A stretch of 64,000 bases of DNA, taken from NCBI RefSeq assembly GCF_900636965.1, contig NZ_LR134331.1, positions 1,364,001 to 1,428,000 on the forward strand, read 5' to 3'. This DNA comes from Lacticaseibacillus rhamnosus. GTDB taxonomy: Bacteria > Bacillota > Bacilli > Lactobacillales > Lactobacillaceae. Positions 47,156 to 57,738 of the stretch are shown one piece after another; position 1 is the first letter of the stretch, and every line of letters starts with the position of its first letter. The translations under genes and the position numbers were made by a program. Below the pieces are notes generated by a model. It was given only the letters and a program-made list of their open reading frames with translations. It was not told the DNA's origin and did not search any database.

Positions 47156-47398
47156 ATGCATCGGACTTTTTACGAGTATCTTATGACGCTGCGTAACCCC
47201 AATGACCACAGCGAGGTAGCGGAATTTGCCAAAAATGCTTTCCTGGATCAAAGCTTTCCGAAACATGAAAAAGATTATCATCGGTTAAGTGATTATTTAG
47301 AACTCAACGGTAATTATTTACCGACGATGGCCATTTTTGACGAAACGTACCGTGATTACGAAGCCAGTGAAAGCACAGGAGGCGATTCATATCAATAA
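47156..47398 (+). CDS. YozE family protein
   Basis: An 80-residue protein matching the YozE/DUF1250 family: FYEYLMTLRNP, an acidic middle with FLDQSFPKHEKDY and YLELNGNYLPTMAIFDE. Structures of the family are small helical bundles, role unknown. It starts 2 bp after msrA, and its end overlaps the upstream part of the ctpA frame. Confidence 0.88.
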   Translation: MHRTFYEYLMTLRNPNDHSEVAEFAKNAFLDQSFPKHEKDYHRLSDYLELNGNYLPTMAIFDETYRDYEASESTGGDSYQ

Positions 47399-48809
47399 AC
47401 ACAAGGTGCCATTGTGGGCGGTCATTGTTTTATTCCTAGTTGCGCTTGGTGGCGGTGCGGCAGGTGGTTATGCCCTGTCATATCAGCAAGCACAACAGTC
47501 TGTCCTTAAAACCGGAGTTCCCAAAGCCTTAGCACCGGTGATTTCGGCTTATGAAACGGTTACGAATAATTATTATAAACAGGTCAGCACAACCAAACTG
47601 ACTGATGGCGCGATCAAGGGCATGTTAAGTTCCCTTGATGACCCATATTCGGTTTATTTGCAAAACAATGACAAAACCAATTTAGACGACACCATTTCTG
47701 CTTCATTTGGCGGGATTGGTGCAACCATTCAGCAGGATCACAACAACCTTTCTATTGCCAGCATTCTACCGGGAACACCGGCGAAAAAAGCAGGTATGAA
47801 GGTCGGCGATGTGCTGCTTAAAGTGAATGGTAAGGATGTGTCTAAAGAGACTGTTACCCAAGCAGTTGCCAAAATCCGTGGCAAAATCGGCACCACAGTA
47901 GCAGTGACCGTTAAACGCGGCAGCAAGCAGGCCACCTTCTCCATGAAACGGAAAAAGATTACCGTTGACACGGTGACTGGGAAACTTGCGCCTGCGAATA
48001 AACAGGTTGGGGTCATTACGATTTCGACCTTCAGCGAACCGACTGTTAAGCAATTCAAAGCGACTGTTAAGAAATTACGCAAAGAAGGCGCTAAATCCTT
48101 TATCCTGGACTTACGGCAAAATCCGGGTGGGATGATGACGGCTGCTTTGTCAATCAGCTCGATGTTCTCCAAAAACGGTCAGACCGTCATGCAGATTGAA
48201 GATCGCAATGGTGCAAAGGAAGTCTATAAAGCAGGCAAAAAGCTTGATGGCGGCTTCAAAGTGACTGAAAAAACCGCGGTGCTTATTGATGGTAATTCCG
48301 CCTCTGCCAGTGAAATCACCGCAGCAGCATTGCACCAGAACAGTCAAATTCCGCTAGTTGGCGAAAAGAGTTTTGGTAAAGGAACCGTTCAAAATGTCGG
48401 CGAGATGAGCAGCAACAAAGAACTCAAGCTGACCGTTGCCAAATGGTTAACGCCAGATGGCACCTGGATCAACCACAAAGGCCTAACGCCTGATGTGAAA
48501 GTTGCTTACCCCGCAGCAGCCAAAATAACGTTAATCAATGCAACCCAACTCAAACCCGGTGACAAGGGCAGTGATGTGAAATCGCTGCAACAGATGCTAA
48601 AAGCCTTAAAGATCGGCTCAGCTACGGTCAACGGTCAATACGATGATGCGACCCAGGCCGCTGTTAAATCCTTCCAGGAGGCCAACAAGCTGGACGCAAG
48701 CGGTACTGCCGATCAGGACACCTTAGCCGCACTGGCACAAAAGCTCAGTGATCAGTTAACGAAGGATGATCCGATGGTAGCGGCTGCTATCAAGGAAGTT
48801 ACGAAATAG
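47391..48809 (+). CDS. S41 C-terminal processing peptidase (CtpA-like) with peptidoglycan-binding domain
   Basis: Membrane-anchored serine protease of about 472 residues. One N-terminal helix (VPLWAVIVLFLVA) leads to a PDZ domain, the S41 catalytic domain with Ser in GNSASASEI and Lys in GEKSFGKGT, and a C-terminal PG-binding-1 domain (last about 75 residues). The start is unclear. The strong AGGAGG (47377-47382) is followed in frame by ATT 47385 and ATC 47391 but by no ATG/GTG/TTG at the right distance; TTG 47337 or GTG 47352/47367 would be weakly served. The coordinate given assumes the best-spaced rare codon. Confidence 0.85.
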   Translation: MNKHKVPLWAVIVLFLVALGGGAAGGYALSYQQAQQSVLKTGVPKALAPVISAYETVTNNYYKQVSTTKLTDGAIKGMLSSLDDPYSVYLQNNDKTNLDDTISASFGGIGATIQQDHNNLSIASILPGTPAKKAGMKVGDVLLKVNGKDVSKETVTQAVAKIRGKIGTTVAVTVKRGSKQATFSMKRKKITVDTVTGKLAPANKQVGVITISTFSEPTVKQFKATVKKLRKEGAKSFILDLRQNPGGMMTAALSISSMFSKNGQTVMQIEDRNGAKEVYKAGKKLDGGFKVTEKTAVLIDGNSASASEITAAALHQNSQIPLVGEKSFGKGTVQNVGEMSSNKELKLTVAKWLTPDGTWINHKGLTPDVKVAYPAAAKITLINATQLKPGDKGSDVKSLQQMLKALKIGSATVNGQYDDATQAAVKSFQEANKLDASGTADQDTLAALAQKLSDQLTKDDPMVAAAIKEVTK

Positions 48810-48923: not shown

Positions 48924-48952
48924 TTGACATCATAAATTATAGAAACTATGAT
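48924..48952 (+). promoter_or_regulatory. Strong promoter of ddmD
   Basis: Perfect TTGACA, a 17-bp spacer and TATGAT. The -10 is one arm of an inverted repeat ATCATA/TATGAT (48929-48952), a possible operator. Transcription would start about 110 nt before ddmD. Confidence 0.8.
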
Positions 48953-49067
48953 TAAAGCACTTAATGAAACCGCTAACATTGCTTGAATCGACTTTTAATC
49001 GGTGCGGTAGGAAAAGTATTTAGGTGTTACTGGTTAATAGATTTTAAATAGAAAAGCAGGATTAAAT

Positions 49068-50012
49068 ATGCAAACTTTAGATTTTAAGGAAATGATTACT
49101 GAGCTACAATCCAAAATACCATTGTATAGGCTGATGTTGTTGAATGCCCCCACAGGTATTGGAAAGAGTTATTCCGTGATCCAAGCATTATGCCAATACG
49201 CGGTAGAACAAGAAAACTTTAGGGCCTTTTTTGTAACCGATCAGAAAAAGAATCTGAAATTACAGGACTTTGAAGCTGCTTGGAATCAAGTCGCGGATGA
49301 ACATAAAGGAACATTCAGTGAACGCATTGGGGTTGTGCGTTCTTTGGAAGATACGGTAGAACGCTTGATTCACGACTGGGATCACAAAAAGATTCCTGGA
49401 ATGTATCGAGAGACGCCTATATTTAAAAAGAATATTGAAAAACTAAGAAAGACCTTTCAGTGTTATAAGATGCTTCAGAACGATGCTATTGACTCAAAGA
49501 CATCTTGGAATTTATTGAATAATGCTGAGTACCAGGTTCGTTGTGCAGTTATAGCGGTTTTGGGAGAAAAATCCCATGCCAATATAAAACCAATATTAGA
49601 TACAAAATCGGACAACTTACAGATTAAACTTAATCCGACTCAGAAAAATACAATTCGAGATTATGTCCTGAAGCAAGCAAAAGCAGATTCTGAATGGCTA
49701 AATAACACATTTCCCACAATTGACTTAGATAAAAGAAAAATAATCATTTTAACAACATCAAAGTTCATAAAAGGTTATACGCCCTTCTTTGAAAAAAGTT
49801 CGAAATCTTTTCAGTTCTCACCAATTCTATCAAATTCTTTGGTTGTTCTTGACGAGTTTGATAGCACAAAGAAGCAGATTTTAGATAATTCAATTGAGGA
49901 CGCATTAAAAGTTCAAGTTGATTTATTGCCATTGTTTGATGCTCTATATGAAGGCCTTAGTAAAATTACCTCAATTTTCAAGTCAAGTGCAACGATGATA
50001 ACGAATTCTTGA
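49068..50012 (+). CDS. 5' fragment of ddmD (helicase N-terminal part)
   Basis: Open frame of 314 residues; the first 300 are DdmD (Walker A Lys33, DEFD 262-265). The last 14 are read from the left end of the IS element before a TGA at 50010-50012. The ATG has a modest ribosome site (GCAGGA). Alone it carries only the first ATP-binding motifs and should not work as a helicase. Confidence 0.8.
   Translation: MQTLDFKEMITELQSKIPLYRLMLLNAPTGIGKSYSVIQALCQYAVEQENFRAFFVTDQKKNLKLQDFEAAWNQVADEHKGTFSERIGVVRSLEDTVERLIHDWDHKKIPGMYRETPIFKKNIEKLRKTFQCYKMLQNDAIDSKTSWNLLNNAEYQVRCAVIAVLGEKSHANIKPILDTKSDNLQIKLNPTQKNTIRDYVLKQAKADSEWLNNTFPTIDLDKRKIIILTTSKFIKGYTPFFEKSSKSFQFSPILSNSLVVLDEFDSTKKQILDNSIEDALKVQVDLLPLFDALYEGLSKITSIFKSSATMITNS
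49956..49968 (+). repeat. Left copy of the 13-bp direct repeat flanking the IS
   Basis: CTTAGTAAAATTA, identical to 51147-51159; a target-site duplication inside ddmD codons for LSKI. Confidence 0.88.
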
Positions 50013-51146
50013 TAGTGGTCTAGGCTGTTACGCCATGCATCGGTAGTAATCGCATGGGCGAAGATAGTTCAGAATACGTCTGGGACGATGGTTCAGTGCG
50101 GATTGGACTGCTTGAATTTCAACCAGGGTAACTGCTCTGAGAGACTTCCCTTTCGGGAAGAATTCCCTAAGCAGTCCATTGGCGTTCTCGTTTGTGCCAC
50201 GCTCCCAAGGCGAGTACGGATGTGCGAAGTAAATCTGGGTTCCAACAATCTCTGATAACTTGGCAAACTCGGAACCATTGTCAAAAGTGATACTCTCAAA
50301 TTCCTTGGCCCCGTAGTCGTCGATCGTGTCCTGCAAGGCTTTAAGGCAGGTGCCCGCATGATAGTCAGGAATCTTGACGATGATCTCAGTCCGGCTGTAC
50401 CGTTCTGTGAGCGTCATTAATGCTGGCTCATCAGCTAAGCGAATACCTTTGACCAAGTCGCCTTCCCAATGTCCCACGCCTGTGCGGTCATTCACGGCCG
50501 CAGGACGCAACTCGATTGAGTCGCCGTATATCTTCTTATTCTTGCGCTTGTGGGCGTTCTTATAGCCTTTGATGCGGCGTCGGAGCTTCTTGGGAAGTGT
50601 CATGTTGTCTAGCTCAAGCAGCCCGGCGTCGATGTAGCGATACACAGTTGTCGTTGAAGGGCAAGCCTTGCCCTGGTCGCGATAGAAGTGTACGAAGCTA
50701 TCAACGCTGTGTACGCGCGGCTTACGAGTAAGCTCCCTGGCGAGAGCCTTGAAGAACGCACGGCCGGTCTTAAGAAAGGCGTAGTGACCGGTTCTATCGC
50801 GTTTACGGTCGTGCATGGCTTGGGCAGTTTCCGCAAGATAGACTTGATGCGAGTGACGCTTCGAGTCGAGCTGAGTTACAGATCCACGCGTGATTTCTCG
50901 TGAGATTGTCGCTTTACTGCGATGAAGCTTCTGTGCAATCACGGTCGCGGTGTCACCAGCAGCCTGAAGGGCCTGAATTGTAGCACGGTCGCTAAAACTG
51001 AGTTGTTGGTAATGCTTGTGGGTGTTAGTCTGAGAGTGGGTCATGAAGATTCCTGCTTTCTTGTTTAGCTAGCACTAACAAGAATAGGTCTTCATGGCCT
51101 TTATGGTCTAGTCGTCAGGGTGTTGCACTTGAATTGTAAACTGGGG
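49969..51146 (-). mobile_element. IS30-family insertion sequence, complete, 1178 bp
   Basis: One transposase gene bounded by terminal inverted repeats of about 25 bp. The left end begins CCTCAATTTTCAAG and the right end, reversed, begins CCCCAGTTTACAAT; about 21 of 25 match, including a perfect TCAAGTGCAAC. A 13-bp direct repeat flanks it. It inserted into ddmD in the opposite orientation. Intact ends and transposase suggest a recent, possibly still mobile copy. Confidence 0.92.
50028..51044 (-). CDS. IS30-family transposase
   Basis: DDE transposase of 338 residues. An N-terminal helix-turn-helix (about 13-60, LSFSDRATIQALQ then IAQKLHRSKATISREI) binds the ends. The catalytic domain has the acids in HWEGDLV, FDNGSEF and the Glu of the ERGTNENANG segment. 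ATG follows AGCAGGAA on the minus strand. The reading frame is uninterrupted. GC content is above the surrounding island. Confidence 0.95.
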   Translation of the reverse strand: MTHSQTNTHKHYQQLSFSDRATIQALQAAGDTATVIAQKLHRSKATISREITRGSVTQLDSKRHSHQVYLAETAQAMHDRKRDRTGHYAFLKTGRAFFKALARELTRKPRVHSVDSFVHFYRDQGKACPSTTTVYRYIDAGLLELDNMTLPKKLRRRIKGYKNAHKRKNKKIYGDSIELRPAAVNDRTGVGHWEGDLVKGIRLADEPALMTLTERYSRTEIIVKIPDYHAGTCLKALQDTIDDYGAKEFESITFDNGSEFAKLSEIVGTQIYFAHPYSPWERGTNENANGLLREFFPKGKSLRAVTLVEIQAVQSALNHRPRRILNYLRPCDYYRCMA

Positions 51147-53822
51147 CTTAGTAAAATTAACAATAAAAAATTGCCGGATCAACTAATTAAAAGTTTCACG
51201 GTCCGGGATACATTCCGAAAAATTATGAAAGACGCTAATGCACTACGCTCGGAGTTCAAATTGGATTTTTTATACAAAACACAAAAGAAACAAGGGAACT
51301 CTGGGTTTGTCATCCATTTTGCCCAGACAGATTTGATCAGCAAAGGCGAGAAATTGCATGCCTATTTTGACGAGAACTTGAGGCAAGTGGTTGTCGGTGA
51401 AAAAATCCGTGATGATCTGCATTTTCATCGGATGTTGCCGATAATTTCTGCATTTCTTCGGGGTGTAAGTGGCTTTATTTTACAGCGGGCTAGGGAATAC
51501 CAACAGTTGAGGAACAGAAAGCTATCGCCAATTGATGAAGCTATGACGATTGAAGACGCTTGTTATACTGTCTACAACGCTTTAGGTTTGTCACAAGTGC
51601 AAGCTAGAGTCTTACTTTCGCTCAGCTACACTTTTTCAAATCAAGGTGGGATTAAGCTTTCATACTATCCACATAGTAGTCGCCGGTTTCAGCAGCGGGG
51701 GCTTAGCTTATTTCAATTTACAAATGATGCTCAACATGAATTACGGACCGAGATCAACGCTTCCTTTTTTTCTGTGACTCCGGAACGTTTTTTGCTGAAT
51801 ATACTGAGTAAGGCTAATGTTTTAGGGCTCTCAGCGACGGCTACTTTACCCACTGTTCTTGATAATTATGACTTGGAATACCTTCGAGATATGCTTGGCC
51901 CGCGTTTATTGAATGGTGCCGATTACCTGAGCAAAACTACGCGTGAAGAATTCGATTTCAAAGCGAGATATATCAAAGGTAACGTTCACATCAAACCGGA
52001 AATAAGCGGCATCAACCGGTCTTTCTCAGAGATCTTAGAAACAGATCGTTCTAGCGTTGATAAAACCGATATTAGAACATTAGATGCTATTTTAGAACAG
52101 AAAATAAGTATGGTTTGCGCTGGTGGTCGGAAAGGCGGTAAGGATTATTATCGCCAACGATATTTAAATCTATTTAATAGCTTTAAAATCTTTCTGAATG
52201 ACCCACTGATGACTTCGTTTCTAGGCTTGCAGTCGTTACTCCCGAGTGGTGGAAGCGAAATGAATGAACAGTATATCATTGATACTTTTGAGAAACTTAA
52301 ACAGCGGATAGGGTCATCGACAGCAATAAATACAGAACTAAGGATTGTTTCATCACGCAAAAGTGGCAGCATTGAAGAACAGCTAGAAAATGCCTTAAGT
52401 CTTCCTAGCAATCAAAATAAGCGTGTCTATATTCTAAGTGCTTATCAGACAATTGGAATCGGACAAAATCTGCAACATCAAATGAACGAATTCGAACGAA
52501 AAAACGTTATAAATATCGCCCCCAAAAATGCCGCTAAAGATGATCCAAGGCAAAAAACCGTTGATTTAGCAGGTGTTTATCTAGCAGATGTCACGCATAT
52601 TCTTGGCAGCAATTTGCCTTTTAAAATGGATGCGTCTGGACTTCGCACTGTTATAGAGCGCCAGTACCTCCTTGATAATAATGAGATAAGCGTTGATGAC
52701 TTGATGACGTTTTTGAATTATCTGCAAAAGCAAATTCCCCAACCCCACCCTAAAAATGCCCGCAGTCTCTATGTCAGTTATTCACGAACGATCATTCAAG
52801 CATTGGGGAGAATGAACCGATCTTTTAATAAAATGCCAACCTTACGAATAATTGTAGATCCTCAGGTGATTTCAAACATCACCGGTAGCGGAATCGATCT
52901 GAGTGGGACAAGTCTTGAATATCGCACGTTGCTTGAATTCTCAGGAAGGCAAAATCCAAACTATGAAAGATCGCGCGTAGAACATGCGAAGGCAAATGCA
53001 ACATTTTACACCTATCGGGACCTTTTTTTGATGGCATTATATTTACAGAAGGATCCCGAAACAGCGCAATTTTATCGAAGGTTACGACTATTTTATGCAC
53101 AGCATCCAACTTGTTCAAATAAAGAATTAATCGAGAGTAAGATTATTAGAGAATATCAAGATGAACGTGGGTTGCAATACTTGTGTAATGAGAGGTCATG
53201 TAACTCTTACGAGGTTAAGGCGCCAAAACGTGATAGTGGTCACTTTGATTTTGGTGGCAGTGGCATGGAAATTTCTGCCGAAGCGTCGGGGTTGCTTGCA
53301 ATGTGTCATTTTCCCGGTCTAAAAGAAGCATTTGAAGCAGAAGGTATCGCAACGGAATGGAAGCCTAATGAGCGAATTCTGAATCCAATCCAGTTTTATA
53401 ACTATTGTGGTTTTATCGGCGAGTTTAGCGGTAAATTTATGATACAGAAGATTTTTAACATTGAATCAGATGTATTTCATGACTTAGAAAATAATGAGTT
53501 ATTTGATTTTCAATGGCAAGGAGAAGTGGCTATTGATTTCAAAAACTGGCATGCGATGCCACGTGTGAATGCTGATAAGGAACGAGAAAAGGTTGAAGAC
53601 AAGTTAAACCGACTGGAACTTAATACTAAGAAAAAATGGCGAGCGATTATTATTAATGTCGTAGCGATTAATCAGGGAAAACTGATTATGACAGTTGATG
53701 GCAAAATTCTTGAAGTCTCCGGGTTGATTACCCATGACGGCCAGATTGCTTTAACCACTGAGCAGCAATTCCAAATAGGGAGGTTTTTCAATAACAATGC
53801 AGACAATGGTACAGACAACTAA
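51120..53822 (+). CDS. 3' fragment of ddmD (helicase C-terminal and nuclease parts)
   Basis: Open frame of up to 900 residues, of which residues 14-900 are DdmD. The first 13 come from the IS end and the repeat. It holds the SAT motif (236-242), motif VI (560-567) and the complete PD-(D/E)xK-like nuclease core (Glu768, Asp796, Asp806-x-Lys808), but no Walker A. The GTG at 51120 has no clear ribosome site. If made, it could be a nuclease fragment without ATPase. Confidence 0.7.
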   Translation: MLHLNCKLGLSKINNKKLPDQLIKSFTVRDTFRKIMKDANALRSEFKLDFLYKTQKKQGNSGFVIHFAQTDLISKGEKLHAYFDENLRQVVVGEKIRDDLHFHRMLPIISAFLRGVSGFILQRAREYQQLRNRKLSPIDEAMTIEDACYTVYNALGLSQVQARVLLSLSYTFSNQGGIKLSYYPHSSRRFQQRGLSLFQFTNDAQHELRTEINASFFSVTPERFLLNILSKANVLGLSATATLPTVLDNYDLEYLRDMLGPRLLNGADYLSKTTREEFDFKARYIKGNVHIKPEISGINRSFSEILETDRSSVDKTDIRTLDAILEQKISMVCAGGRKGGKDYYRQRYLNLFNSFKIFLNDPLMTSFLGLQSLLPSGGSEMNEQYIIDTFEKLKQRIGSSTAINTELRIVSSRKSGSIEEQLENALSLPSNQNKRVYILSAYQTIGIGQNLQHQMNEFERKNVINIAPKNAAKDDPRQKTVDLAGVYLADVTHILGSNLPFKMDASGLRTVIERQYLLDNNEISVDDLMTFLNYLQKQIPQPHPKNARSLYVSYSRTIIQALGRMNRSFNKMPTLRIIVDPQVISNITGSGIDLSGTSLEYRTLLEFSGRQNPNYERSRVEHAKANATFYTYRDLFLMALYLQKDPETAQFYRRLRLFYAQHPTCSNKELIESKIIREYQDERGLQYLCNERSCNSYEVKAPKRDSGHFDFGGSGMEISAEASGLLAMCHFPGLKEAFEAEGIATEWKPNERILNPIQFYNYCGFIGEFSGKFMIQKIFNIESDVFHDLENNELFDFQWQGEVAIDFKNWHAMPRVNADKEREKVEDKLNRLELNTKKKWRAIIINVVAINQGKLIMTVDGKILEVSGLITHDGQIALTTEQQFQIGRFFNNNADNGTDN
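51129..51157 (+). promoter_or_regulatory. Possible hybrid promoter at the IS30/ddmD junction
   Basis: TTGAAT inside the IS right end, a 17-bp spacer and TAAAAT inside the duplicated target site. It would read into the 3' part of ddmD and ddmE. The pairing exists only because of the insertion. Confidence 0.4.
51147..51159 (+). repeat. Right copy of the 13-bp direct repeat
   Basis: CTTAGTAAAATTA, immediately after the IS right end. Confidence 0.88.
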
Positions 53823-55941
53823 ACTTGATTATGGGATTAACATGTTGCAGTTGCAGGCTGACTTTCATTTTCTGCTAGTCAAAGTTGCTAATAATGCTTA
53901 TGCTAGTTATAACCGTCTAATTGGCTCATGCATGCCCCAAGCGCTCACAGCTATAGGAAAAGGTAAATATCTGCTCATGTTCAAAGAATTACCTATGTTG
54001 TCACATGACGATAATCTGAATGTTCGCGAGATTTTGCTGGAAAATAAAAGTCAATTCAGGATTTTCCCCAACCACTTACTTCAGCTGCTAGTTAATGAAC
54101 AGACTGCCAACAGTCCTGGTTTGTCAGAAGCAAGCAAAACACCTGAGCTTCTCGTTGTAAAAGAGAATTGGTGTCAGCAATGTTCAGATATGCGGCTACA
54201 ATGTTTTGCAATAAACGTGAAGGTTAACTGGGAACAGGATCTGGAACTCAGAGTTCAAACATACACGGAGACAGCAGAATTTAAGTGGGATAAACCAATC
54301 TATAAAATTGATGCTGAACATGAGCGGTTAGTCCGTTGTTATCAACCAACAAATGGGCCTTACTTTGTTCGCGGGAACCGGAAACGGAATCGCAATTCTG
54401 TTGAGTTTTTGTCTCTACAAGATGAGTCATCGTTTTTGCAAAGTAAGGTAGGGATTGCCCAGACAGTTTTGAACAATCTTAATCGAAATGAGAAAGCGTA
54501 TTTGACTCGTCCAGTTACTTTTCATAAAAGTTTGGTAGAACAATATTCACGTACGAAACTTAACGAAACCCAAGCTATTTGGAAGCAGATTGCTGGCAGT
54601 CAACTTACCATATATGCGCAACCTGACGATAAATTAAGTACAGGTTTAGCTGATCGCATGGCAATCGAGCTGATGAAAAGTTACATTGTAAAAGAAAGCA
54701 AGATTCAAATTAAACGTATGTCGAAAGCCCAATCTGGACTCAATATACAAGTTATTCGTGATGAACGTGAAGGAACAGCAAAGGACTATTATGAAATCAG
54801 CGCAAAAGATCAAATTATTCAACATGTAACCGTTGAAAAGTTTGGCAATTATCGCAATGGTGACGAAGAGGTTAGGTGGAAACCAAGCGTTACCGGGAAA
54901 GATAAGGACCCGGGTCGTGATGTCTCGATCATTAAACTTATCCAAGAACTATGCATTAAGCGTGACTTGGCACGAAAGCGCTTGGAGTTCGTGGAAGAAG
55001 CATTAGCAATTAAGACGCTAGCATTTAGTTTTTATTATTTTTACTTTCTGCATGAGTCACCTGATCCCGAGGTAATGGTGATTAAGCTAAGTTTTACATC
55101 CAAGAAGGAGATGGTATTTTCTAAAAAAAAGGTATCTTTAAATTGGTTGGAACAGGATGATGAGTTTACCCGAGTTTGTCAACTAGTTTTCTTTAGTATT
55201 TTTTCTGCAAAAAAGCAATTCGCTTGGGATAGCGTTGAATGTGTTGTTGAGTTTGAAGGTAATCAAGTCCTGATTCAACAACTCAATCGTACTGTGATGC
55301 CTGATGGGGATCGAATTAGGAAACAACTAAGCCTGAATAACCCAAAAAGAATCCTCTCACGAGAAAAGATTCTGAACGAGCTGAATAAACTGCGATCTCT
55401 AATTTCCGACAATGAACAGTTGGCTGCGGCGTATAAAATATTACAACAAGTTATAGTCGGTATGCCTGTTTCCTTTACTCTAAAAGAATTGGACACTGCA
55501 GCACGTGCCCAAGACCTAACACCACGTAAAAATGGCATGAAACAAGTTAATCGGTTTTTAGAGGCCAATGCTTCATTTACACTGAAGACAACGCTGCAAC
55601 GAGAAATGCCTAATTCGCCACTTACCGGAATGAAGTGGATTGGACTTACACGAATTGAGGACAGTAATTTGGGATTTAATGCGTTTTATTTTGTTGGCAG
55701 CAGCCGATCGCTACAGACAAGAATTCCTCGGGCAGTAACATTACGCCGCCTGTTACCTTTAACTGGCGATGATGAAATGATTGATAATTTATTTCCTAAA
55801 CTTGCAGCAATGATGAGTGTTGAGTTTGTGCGCAGTGGTCAGTACACCGTTGTTCCTTATCCAGTGAAGTATCTTAGGGAGTTTTGGCTCAGTGAGCAAA
55901 GGAAGTATCCTGAATATCGCAGGTCCAAGAATAGGCAGTAA
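53797..55941 (+). CDS. ddmE: DdmE-like prokaryotic Argonaute homologue
   Basis: A 714-residue protein, close to the size of Vibrio DdmE, the DNA-guided Argonaute-like partner that marks plasmids for DdmD. Residues about 268-350 look like a MID domain: strand LTIYAQPDD, helix, NIQVIRDERE, then YYEISAKDQIIQHVTVEKF. About 375-714 would be a divergent PIWI part; I cannot see a clear DEDX catalytic set, consistent with a binding rather than cutting role. The ATG overlaps the end of ddmD by 26 bp with AGGGAGG 13 bp upstream, so translation is coupled. It appears intact. Assignment is from partner, size and pattern; pPIWI-RE is the main alternative. Confidence 0.65.
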   Translation: MQTMVQTTKLDYGINMLQLQADFHFLLVKVANNAYASYNRLIGSCMPQALTAIGKGKYLLMFKELPMLSHDDNLNVREILLENKSQFRIFPNHLLQLLVNEQTANSPGLSEASKTPELLVVKENWCQQCSDMRLQCFAINVKVNWEQDLELRVQTYTETAEFKWDKPIYKIDAEHERLVRCYQPTNGPYFVRGNRKRNRNSVEFLSLQDESSFLQSKVGIAQTVLNNLNRNEKAYLTRPVTFHKSLVEQYSRTKLNETQAIWKQIAGSQLTIYAQPDDKLSTGLADRMAIELMKSYIVKESKIQIKRMSKAQSGLNIQVIRDEREGTAKDYYEISAKDQIIQHVTVEKFGNYRNGDEEVRWKPSVTGKDKDPGRDVSIIKLIQELCIKRDLARKRLEFVEEALAIKTLAFSFYYFYFLHESPDPEVMVIKLSFTSKKEMVFSKKKVSLNWLEQDDEFTRVCQLVFFSIFSAKKQFAWDSVECVVEFEGNQVLIQQLNRTVMPDGDRIRKQLSLNNPKRILSREKILNELNKLRSLISDNEQLAAAYKILQQVIVGMPVSFTLKELDTAARAQDLTPRKNGMKQVNRFLEANASFTLKTTLQREMPNSPLTGMKWIGLTRIEDSNLGFNAFYFVGSSRSLQTRIPRAVTLRRLLPLTGDDEMIDNLFPKLAAMMSVEFVRSGQYTVVPYPVKYLREFWLSEQRKYPEYRRSKNRQ

Positions 55942-55956
55942 AGAAAATTATGAAGG

Positions 55957-56002
55957 AAAAATCTATGTTTGGCTAAATTCAATGACCAACCATAGATTTT
56001 TT
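55957..56002 (+). terminator. Terminator after ddmE
   Basis: AAAAATCTATG and TTGG pair with CCAA and CATAGATTTTTT around a 13-nt loop; T run at the end. It separates the island operon from the glycosylase gene. Confidence 0.85.
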
Positions 56003-56152: not shown

Positions 56153-56863
56153 ATGAATGAACAAGCGAATTTCGCCACCAAAGTTCTAACCCTTCATCAA
56201 CGACTGGCAAGCGTCAAAATGACGTTACCTGGTAGCTATCAGTTGGTGAATCCATATAGCGGAGAGCAGAAGCATGCAGTTGACCAGATCACGGCAGCTT
56301 TTTATCATAAATATTTTAATGATAATCACAAGCGCCGATTAATTTTGGGGAGCTCGCCAGCGCGAAAAGGCACTGCCATAACGGGGGTTCCCTTTGAAGA
56401 TGCAGCCGAGTTACAAGCAGAGACAGGTATCGCTGTGGCGAAGTTCCAGATTAAGCCATCGTCAACAAACTTCTTATATGATGTAATGCAGCAATATGGT
56501 GGCAAGAGAAAATTTTATAGTGACTTCTACATGAGCTTTGCTTGTCCTTTGGGGTTAAGTAAAATAAGTGCTAAAGGAAACGTGATAAATAGTAATTATT
56601 ATGAAACTAACGTGATTAAGGATAGACTAATGCCATTCATAGTTGCTTCATTGCAGGAGCAAATCAAATTAGGCGTAGACACCTCAGTTTGTTACTGTAT
56701 TGGTAGTGGCGAGAATTTTAAGGTGCTAACAAGTATCAATCAGACGTATCATTTCTTTGGTAGCATTGTCCCATTAGAGCACCCACGCTATGTCATGCAG
56801 TATCGCTTTAAGGACAGAGCCCGCTATATTCAAAAATACGTTGCTGCCTTAAATTGTAAATAA
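56153..56863 (+). CDS. SMUG2/DUF4918-like DNA glycosylase family protein
   Basis: A 236-residue protein of the uracil-DNA glycosylase superfamily. Motif 1 is LGSSPARKGTAITGVPF (65-81) and the C-terminal substrate motif is PLEHPRYVMQYR (207-218). Motif 1 has Ser where SMUG enzymes usually have the catalytic Asn (GxNPG), so activity may differ or be lost. ATG follows CGAGGAG. It has its own promoter and lies 17 bp before rbgA. Whether it belongs with the DdmDE island or with the core genome cannot be decided here. Confidence 0.75.
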   Translation: MNEQANFATKVLTLHQRLASVKMTLPGSYQLVNPYSGEQKHAVDQITAAFYHKYFNDNHKRRLILGSSPARKGTAITGVPFEDAAELQAETGIAVAKFQIKPSSTNFLYDVMQQYGGKRKFYSDFYMSFACPLGLSKISAKGNVINSNYYETNVIKDRLMPFIVASLQEQIKLGVDTSVCYCIGSGENFKVLTSINQTYHFFGSIVPLEHPRYVMQYRFKDRARYIQKYVAALNCK

Positions 56864-56880: not shown

Positions 56881-57738
56881 TTGGCAATTCAATGGTTCCC
56901 CGGTCATATGGCCAAGGCCCGTAAGCAAGTACAGGAAAAAATTAAACAAGTTGATCTGATTCTTGAAGTCGTTGATGCTCGAACGCCTGAATCGTCACGT
57001 AATCCGATGTTAGATGAATTGGTGGGTGATAAACCGCGGATTATCATTTTAAACAAGCAGGACTTGGCTGATCCTGTACTGACGAATGAATGGGTTCGGT
57101 ATTATCAAACACAAGGCTTTGCTGCGATTGCGATTGATGCACAACATGCTAAGCGGCTACAGCAGATCCCCCAAGCGGCCGCGAAGTTAATGGCGGAAAA
57201 GATTGCGCGGAAAAAAGCCCGCGGAATTCGCAATCCCATGATTAAGGCAATGTGTATTGGTATTCCTAACGTTGGGAAATCAACGGTTTTGAATCGGTTG
57301 GTTCGAAAAAATATCGCGGTGACCGGCAACAAGCCCGGGGTAACCAAGAATCAACAATGGCTAAAAGCGAGCGACAACTTTCAATTACTTGATACGCCCG
57401 GAATTCTTTGGCCAAAGTTTGCCTCCCAGACAATCGGGATGCGCTTGGCATTCACGGGAGCAATTGCCGATGCTGTTTTCCAGGAGGATGTGGTTGGTTT
57501 GTATGGACTGACCTATTTTATGGCGCACTATCCGGAGGCGTTGAAAAAAGCATATCATCTGACTGACACGGATCTGCAGGCTGCACCGCATGAAGTACTG
57601 GTAAAACTAACGAAAACGCAAGGATTTGGTGAGGAATTTAATCGGATGGCGGAACGGCTGATTTTCGATGCGCGCCAAGGGAAGTTAGGTCGATTTACGT
57701 TAGAGAAACCGGGTGAATTAGATGCCGACGCTGAGTGA
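56881..57738 (+). CDS. rbgA: Ribosome biogenesis GTPase RbgA (YlqF)
   Basis: Circularly permuted GTPase needed late in 50S assembly, 285 residues. Motif order is G4 NKQD (about 59-62), G1 GIPNVGKST (about 126-134), G3 DTPG, with a C-terminal helical RNA-binding domain. The start is TTG 56881 ([13 protein letters not shown]) after AAAGGAG. rnhB overlaps its end, a conserved Firmicutes pair. Confidence 0.95.

Follow-up and report, generated by a model that had tools for sequence, protein, structure and literature searches.

Genetic organization of the locus

The window (the whole 64,000-nucleotide stretch analyzed here, G000:C1:1364001-1428000, from a genome, G000, assembled as a single contig of 2,988,387 bases) carries, flanked by the core genes ctpA and rbgA, a segment comprising, in this order, a 5' piece of ddmD, an IS30-family element, a 3' piece of ddmD, ddmE, and a gene for a protein of the uracil-DNA-glycosylase (UDG) superfamily (Table 1). 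Homologue searches recovered ctpA, and likewise rbgA, in 29 of 30 genomes of the genus. ddmD directly precedes ddmE on the same strand, the two overlapping by 26 bp, and their order is kept in all 20 other stretches in which both genes were found. The ddmD pieces (35.5% and 39.6% GC) and ddmE (40.0%) are set apart in composition from the first 49 kb of the window, where 5.8-kb stretches have 45.5-48.2% GC. The open reading frames, borders, and GC values thus agree with the initial annotation, which had described an AT-rich island between two core genes. The end that it had placed at 56002 needs correction: the variable segment reaches past it as far as rbgA, because the UDG-superfamily gene is AT-rich too (40.8% GC).

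The island had also been credited with its own strong promoter and a terminator, of which a promoter match and a plausible hairpin remain. The site before ddmD comes close to the consensus, but promoter-like sites are no commoner in the whole region than in shuffled sequence (21 vs. 19.4, sd 5.0). Since the inverted repeat after ddmE ends in a T run, it is a plausible AT-rich terminator, although the terminator scan lists none after this gene.

Table 1. Features of the ctpA-rbgA interval, in positions of the window
Feature	Coordinates	Strand	Details
ctpA-type S41 protease	47337..48809	+	Core left border; NCBIfam TIGR00225, E 2e-100
Promoter-like site TTGACA-17-TATGAT	48924..48952	+	Before ddmD; 11/12 consensus, match only
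ddmD 5' piece	49068..50012	+	300 ddmD codons and 14 residues at or beyond the IS junction
Target duplication, left copy	49956..49968		13 bp
IS30-family element	49969..51146		1178 bp; one of 10 identical copies in the genome; 25-nt inverted ends, 84% complementary
IS30 transposase	50028..51044	-	338 aa; NF033563, E 2e-74
ddmD 3' piece	51120..53822	+	ddmD sequence from 51147; second helicase half and C-terminal nuclease
Target duplication, right copy	51147..51159		13 bp
ddmE	53797..55941	+	714 aa, intact, Argonaute-like
AT-rich inverted repeat after ddmE, possible terminator	55957..56001		16-nt arms, 94% complementary; T run at end
Uracil-DNA-glycosylase superfamily protein	56153..56863	+	PF03167, E 1e-12
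rbgA (ylqF) GTPase	56881..57738	+	Core right border; TIGR03596, E 8e-104

The two proteins belong to the DdmD and DdmE families

Sequence comparison identifies both ddmD pieces as parts of one DdmD: the 5' piece matches residues 1-299 of the solved Lactobacillus casei DdmD (PDB 9ix4; 57.1% identity over 301 residues, E 8e-111) and the 3' piece residues 289-1184 (57.3% over 895 residues), with the latter also matching the PADLOC DdmD model (E 3e-13). ddmE is 58.6% identical over 707 residues, nearly its full length, to L. casei DdmE (PDB 9iw3), and the same DdmD and DdmE sequences recur in PDB 9ixm, titled as Lactobacillus casei DdmDE bound with DNA. By arithmetic on the coordinates, the restored ddmD spans 4752 nucleotides (53819-49068+1), which on removal of 1191 (the IS and one target copy) leave 3561, that is, the 1187 codons originally predicted. 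The prediction of an overlapping 714-residue Argonaute-like protein is likewise upheld by the reading frame and by the agreement of the sequence, profile, and structure searches. Its AlphaFold model (mean pLDDT 87.7) has a long Argonaute-like fold and in the structure search matches L. casei DdmE (TM 0.93), then V. cholerae DdmE (TM 0.56-0.69 by query length), and then Argonautes (TM 0.28-0.41), so that the comparison with V. cholerae DdmE, proposed beforehand as a check, came out positive.

Family alignments were assembled from the Lactobacillaceae, comprising 18 DdmE (A1) and 16 DdmD (A2) sequences, and the profiles built from them detect the V. cholerae proteins, DdmD at E ~2e-71 and DdmE at E ~2e-15. 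The helicase motifs, conserved across the family, are distributed over both pieces: the 5' piece has APTGIGKS and LDEFD, the 3' piece QALGRMNR, which we take to be the Walker A, DExx, and motif VI elements of an SF2 helicase. In the C-terminal region, the sequence alignment points to a PD-(D/E)xK nuclease, with E793, D806, and K808 invariant in all 16 sequences and presumably filling the roles typical of that fold.

A different pairing of a helicase-nuclease with an Argonaute, other than DdmDE, might be suspected from the lack of any match between the PADLOC DdmE model and the window DdmE, and from the distance of the V. cholerae proteins (the fold alignment of DdmE shows 14% identity). However, the 57-59% identity to solved proteins named DdmD and DdmE, the reach of the profiles to the V. 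cholerae pair, and the DdmE fold match all argue against such a system, and the PADLOC models themselves match 8 of the 18 DdmE and 14 of the 16 DdmD family members. We accordingly regard a different system as exceedingly improbable: on the evidence of identity, profiles, and fold the family names given initially are correct, and the locus is a real DdmDE, new as a member.

In V. cholerae, plasmid DNA is located by DdmE, a long Argonaute devoid of catalytic activity and directed by a DNA guide; DdmE brings in DdmD, a helicase-nuclease, which moves along the plasmid DNA and cuts it (PMC12409362, in excerpt). The locus is very probably a chromosomal anti-plasmid DdmDE system whose ddmD has recently been cut by the IS30-family element.

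An IS30-family element splits ddmD

The element is assigned to the IS30 family by its transposase, its 25-nt inverted ends, and a 13-bp target duplication. With ddmD codons on either side of this 1178-bp insertion (49969-51146), ddmD is not a complete, uninterrupted gene, as had been noticed initially. The break falls after codon 300, so that the 5' piece keeps Walker A and DEFD and the 3' piece has motif VI and the nuclease; both pieces otherwise stay open, with no second lesion. All 10 copies of the element found in the genome are identical over their full length, and the break is therefore recent.

Target duplications are 13 bp at the ddmD copy and 14 bp at the nine others. IS30 elements usually duplicate 2-3 bp of target, by which standard these duplications are long. 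The ten duplications average 25% GC, which would fit a possible tendency of the element toward AT-rich DNA such as the ddmDE island. ISLrh of L. rhamnosus M1 is ruled out as the element, being an 857-bp member of the IS5 family with a 3-bp duplication (PMC12016507, in excerpt).

Six of the 10 copies, including the one in ddmD, sit in a frame of at least 100 codons. The other five genes so cut, searched by pieces, appear to encode a TetR-type regulator, a rhomboid protein, a DeoR-type regulator, an acyltransferase, and an ABC ATPase; four of them have a Pfam match well above chance on at least one side, and the TetR-type one only at the Pfam cut-off. ddmD is hence one of several genes cut by the same element, and a chance event fits.

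The insertion parts codons 1-300 of ddmD, which include Walker A and DEFD, from the second helicase half and the nuclease, such that full DdmD would no longer be made even though ddmE is whole. As no full DdmD would be made, we infer from the sequence that the system is most likely inactive. The cause was probably a chance insertion by an expanding element that cut other genes as well and tends to AT-rich targets. Counting against this account, a GTG at 51120, just before the 3' piece, could start that piece, and two half-proteins might then be made. That two such products of the open frames reassemble as a working split DdmD, to which a weak promoter-like match at 51129-51157 would also lend itself, is nonetheless very improbable, given that the cut lies inside the helicase core, after motif II, that the 5' piece ends in IS-derived residues, and that DdmD is one chain in the 13 loci with whole genes. 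An allele of ddmD free of the IS did not turn up in the window species, for which, as for every species, the genome collections searched contain one genome.

The ctpA-rbgA interval as a variable site

The window CtpA is 87-91% identical to that of four close relatives (G005, G006, G017, and G028), among which the ctpA-rbgA interval differs greatly in length: ~8.1 kb in the window, 3.2 kb in G005, 5.0 kb in G028 (L. zeae), ~2 kb in G006 (L. chiayiensis), and 0.6 kb in G017. Farther out in the genus, the two genes frequently lie apart. In G005 the interval is occupied by a UDG-like gene together with an IS30-family element distinct from that of the window, and in L. zeae (L061:14210-15949) by a reverse transcriptase and a trypsin-like protease, which match the two halves of the single-gene type XI retron of PADLOC. 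In this draft genome the two parts share a reading frame and are separated by a stop, i.e., the retron is interrupted. Because the contents differ among these five genomes and include a retron in L. zeae, the ctpA-rbgA site varies among casei-group species and can take defense genes.

The UDG-superfamily protein occurs in three of 30 genus genomes, window included (window 56153-56863; L126:4407-5177), with a homologue 60% identical at the same site in G005 and one 61% identical elsewhere in G017. A link of this gene to ddmDE was considered and rejected: it was not found in the 22 other ddmDE stretches searched, some of them cut by contig ends, and G005 has the gene and no DdmE match. It is probably independent cargo of the ctpA-rbgA site.

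Distribution and decay of ddmDE in Lactobacillaceae

A search of 397 Lactobacillaceae genomes recovered DdmE in 24, and the genus search in two of 30. Two genomes with matches of only ~40 residues (G073, G399) were dropped and one from the genus search (G004) was added, giving 23 loci, of which one (G353) is cut by a contig end. Among the remaining 22, both genes are whole in 13 and a lesion is present in six, namely the IS in ddmD of the window (G000), a stop in ddmE (G256), a frameshift in ddmD (G039 and G337), a stop in ddmD (G153), and a stop near the end of ddmE (G345). G080 has a whole ddmE with ddmD absent from the contig, and the loci of G004 and G322 are broken or cut at several places. 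The five loci other than the window that bear a single disabling stop or frameshift are L040, L041, L042, L054, and L055. Phase variation was considered for the two ddmD genes with a frameshift: seven consecutive A occur in the shift region of L054, and L041 lacks such a run. DdmE had no match in plasmid records, from which records near the window may be excluded, nor in assembled genome contigs and viral contigs, where the short exact peptide seeds used reach only close relatives and records near the window may again be excluded, so that the latter two results are no proof of absence.

As an assembly control we used dnaE, which is whole in 20 of the 22 genomes and broken only in G004 and G322; these two were for that reason set aside from the lesion count. 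A disabling lesion is thus present in 6/19 assessable ddmDE loci vs. 0/20 dnaE genes (Fisher p 0.008), dnaE being essential and shorter than ddmDE and hence a rough control for sequencing error only. The sample was picked after the window lesion was known (5/18 without the window), several of the intact loci (G357, G330, G348) are near copies, and most of the genomes are drafts. The count suggests that DdmDE is patchy and often inactivated in the family.

Such recurrent lesions would be expected if the loss of DdmD were selected, be it for keeping a useful plasmid or for removing the cost of the system. Against this, an essential gene controls for assembly error and not for the decay normally seen in genes that can be dispensed with, five other genes of the same genome are cut by the same IS, the genome has neither a plasmid contig nor a Rep_3 or Rep_1 match, and the broken loci are not associated with Rep_3. 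We consider selected loss rather unlikely.

The plasmid data bear also on the initial suggestion that the strain has been released from plasmid exclusion. In the window genome, the searches for Rep_3 and Rep_1 gave no match and there is no second contig, in an assembly that may lack plasmids. Rep_3 was matched in 1/6 genomes with a broken and 5/13 with an intact ddmDE (p = 0.60), one of the five intact-locus matches (G344) being partial; Rep_1 was matched in G080 only, of 20 genomes, and in none of 14 control genomes. A RepA_N search in five genomes was uninformative, as no control genome matched. With a small sample and assemblies that may lack plasmids, the suggestion is unsupported rather than refuted.

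The element itself does occur on plasmids: of 85 plasmid records that match it, 56 do so over 80% or more of its length, the best match has at least 99% identity in 71, and 44 come from Lacticaseibacillus. One may thus conceive of the IS as an accidental counter-defense, which would arrive on plasmids, tend to AT-rich DNA such as acquired defense islands, and there knock out an anti-plasmid system, this being one instance of a broader, repeated loss of DdmDE across the Lactobacillaceae. We offer this scenario as speculation and judge it improbable; our preferred account remains chance insertion into a chromosomal DdmDE locus.

Relationship to known DdmDE systems

The DdmDE type, its occurrence in the casei group, and its structures are already published: the presentation of a Gram-positive DdmDE as a novelty was overstated, in view of the L. 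casei structures 9ix4, 9iw3, and 9ixm and an earlier publication about that system (Huang et al., 2024, Cell Research, as cited in the excerpt of PMC12409362). What is new is the variability of the ctpA-rbgA site, with its interrupted L. zeae retron, and the excess of lesions in ddmDE over dnaE; in the open-license literature we found no earlier report of a broken ddmDE in Lactobacillaceae. The window locus provides a further natural DdmDE, a broken one, from a casei-group species, and it indicates ctpA-rbgA as a site of differing accessory or defense genes among these species. More interest attaches to the hint of frequent loss in the family than to the locus itself, as a loss rate that held in larger samples would offer a direct test of whether an anti-plasmid defense is costly and repeatedly discarded.

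With the V. cholerae DdmDE, which lies on the pathogenicity island VPI-2 near other defense systems (PMC12409362, in excerpt), the window system shares the domain order and a homology seen by profile and, for DdmE, also by fold, whereas sequence identity between the proteins is very low. The IS30-family elements of lactobacillus plasmids are alike in sequence to the window copy, which differs in being chromosomal and inside ddmD. The L. casei DdmDE (PDB 9ix4, 9iw3, 9ixm) has in common with the window locus the two proteins, the gene sizes, the DdmE fold, and 57-59% sequence identity; the window locus differs from it in that its ddmD is split by an IS30-family element.
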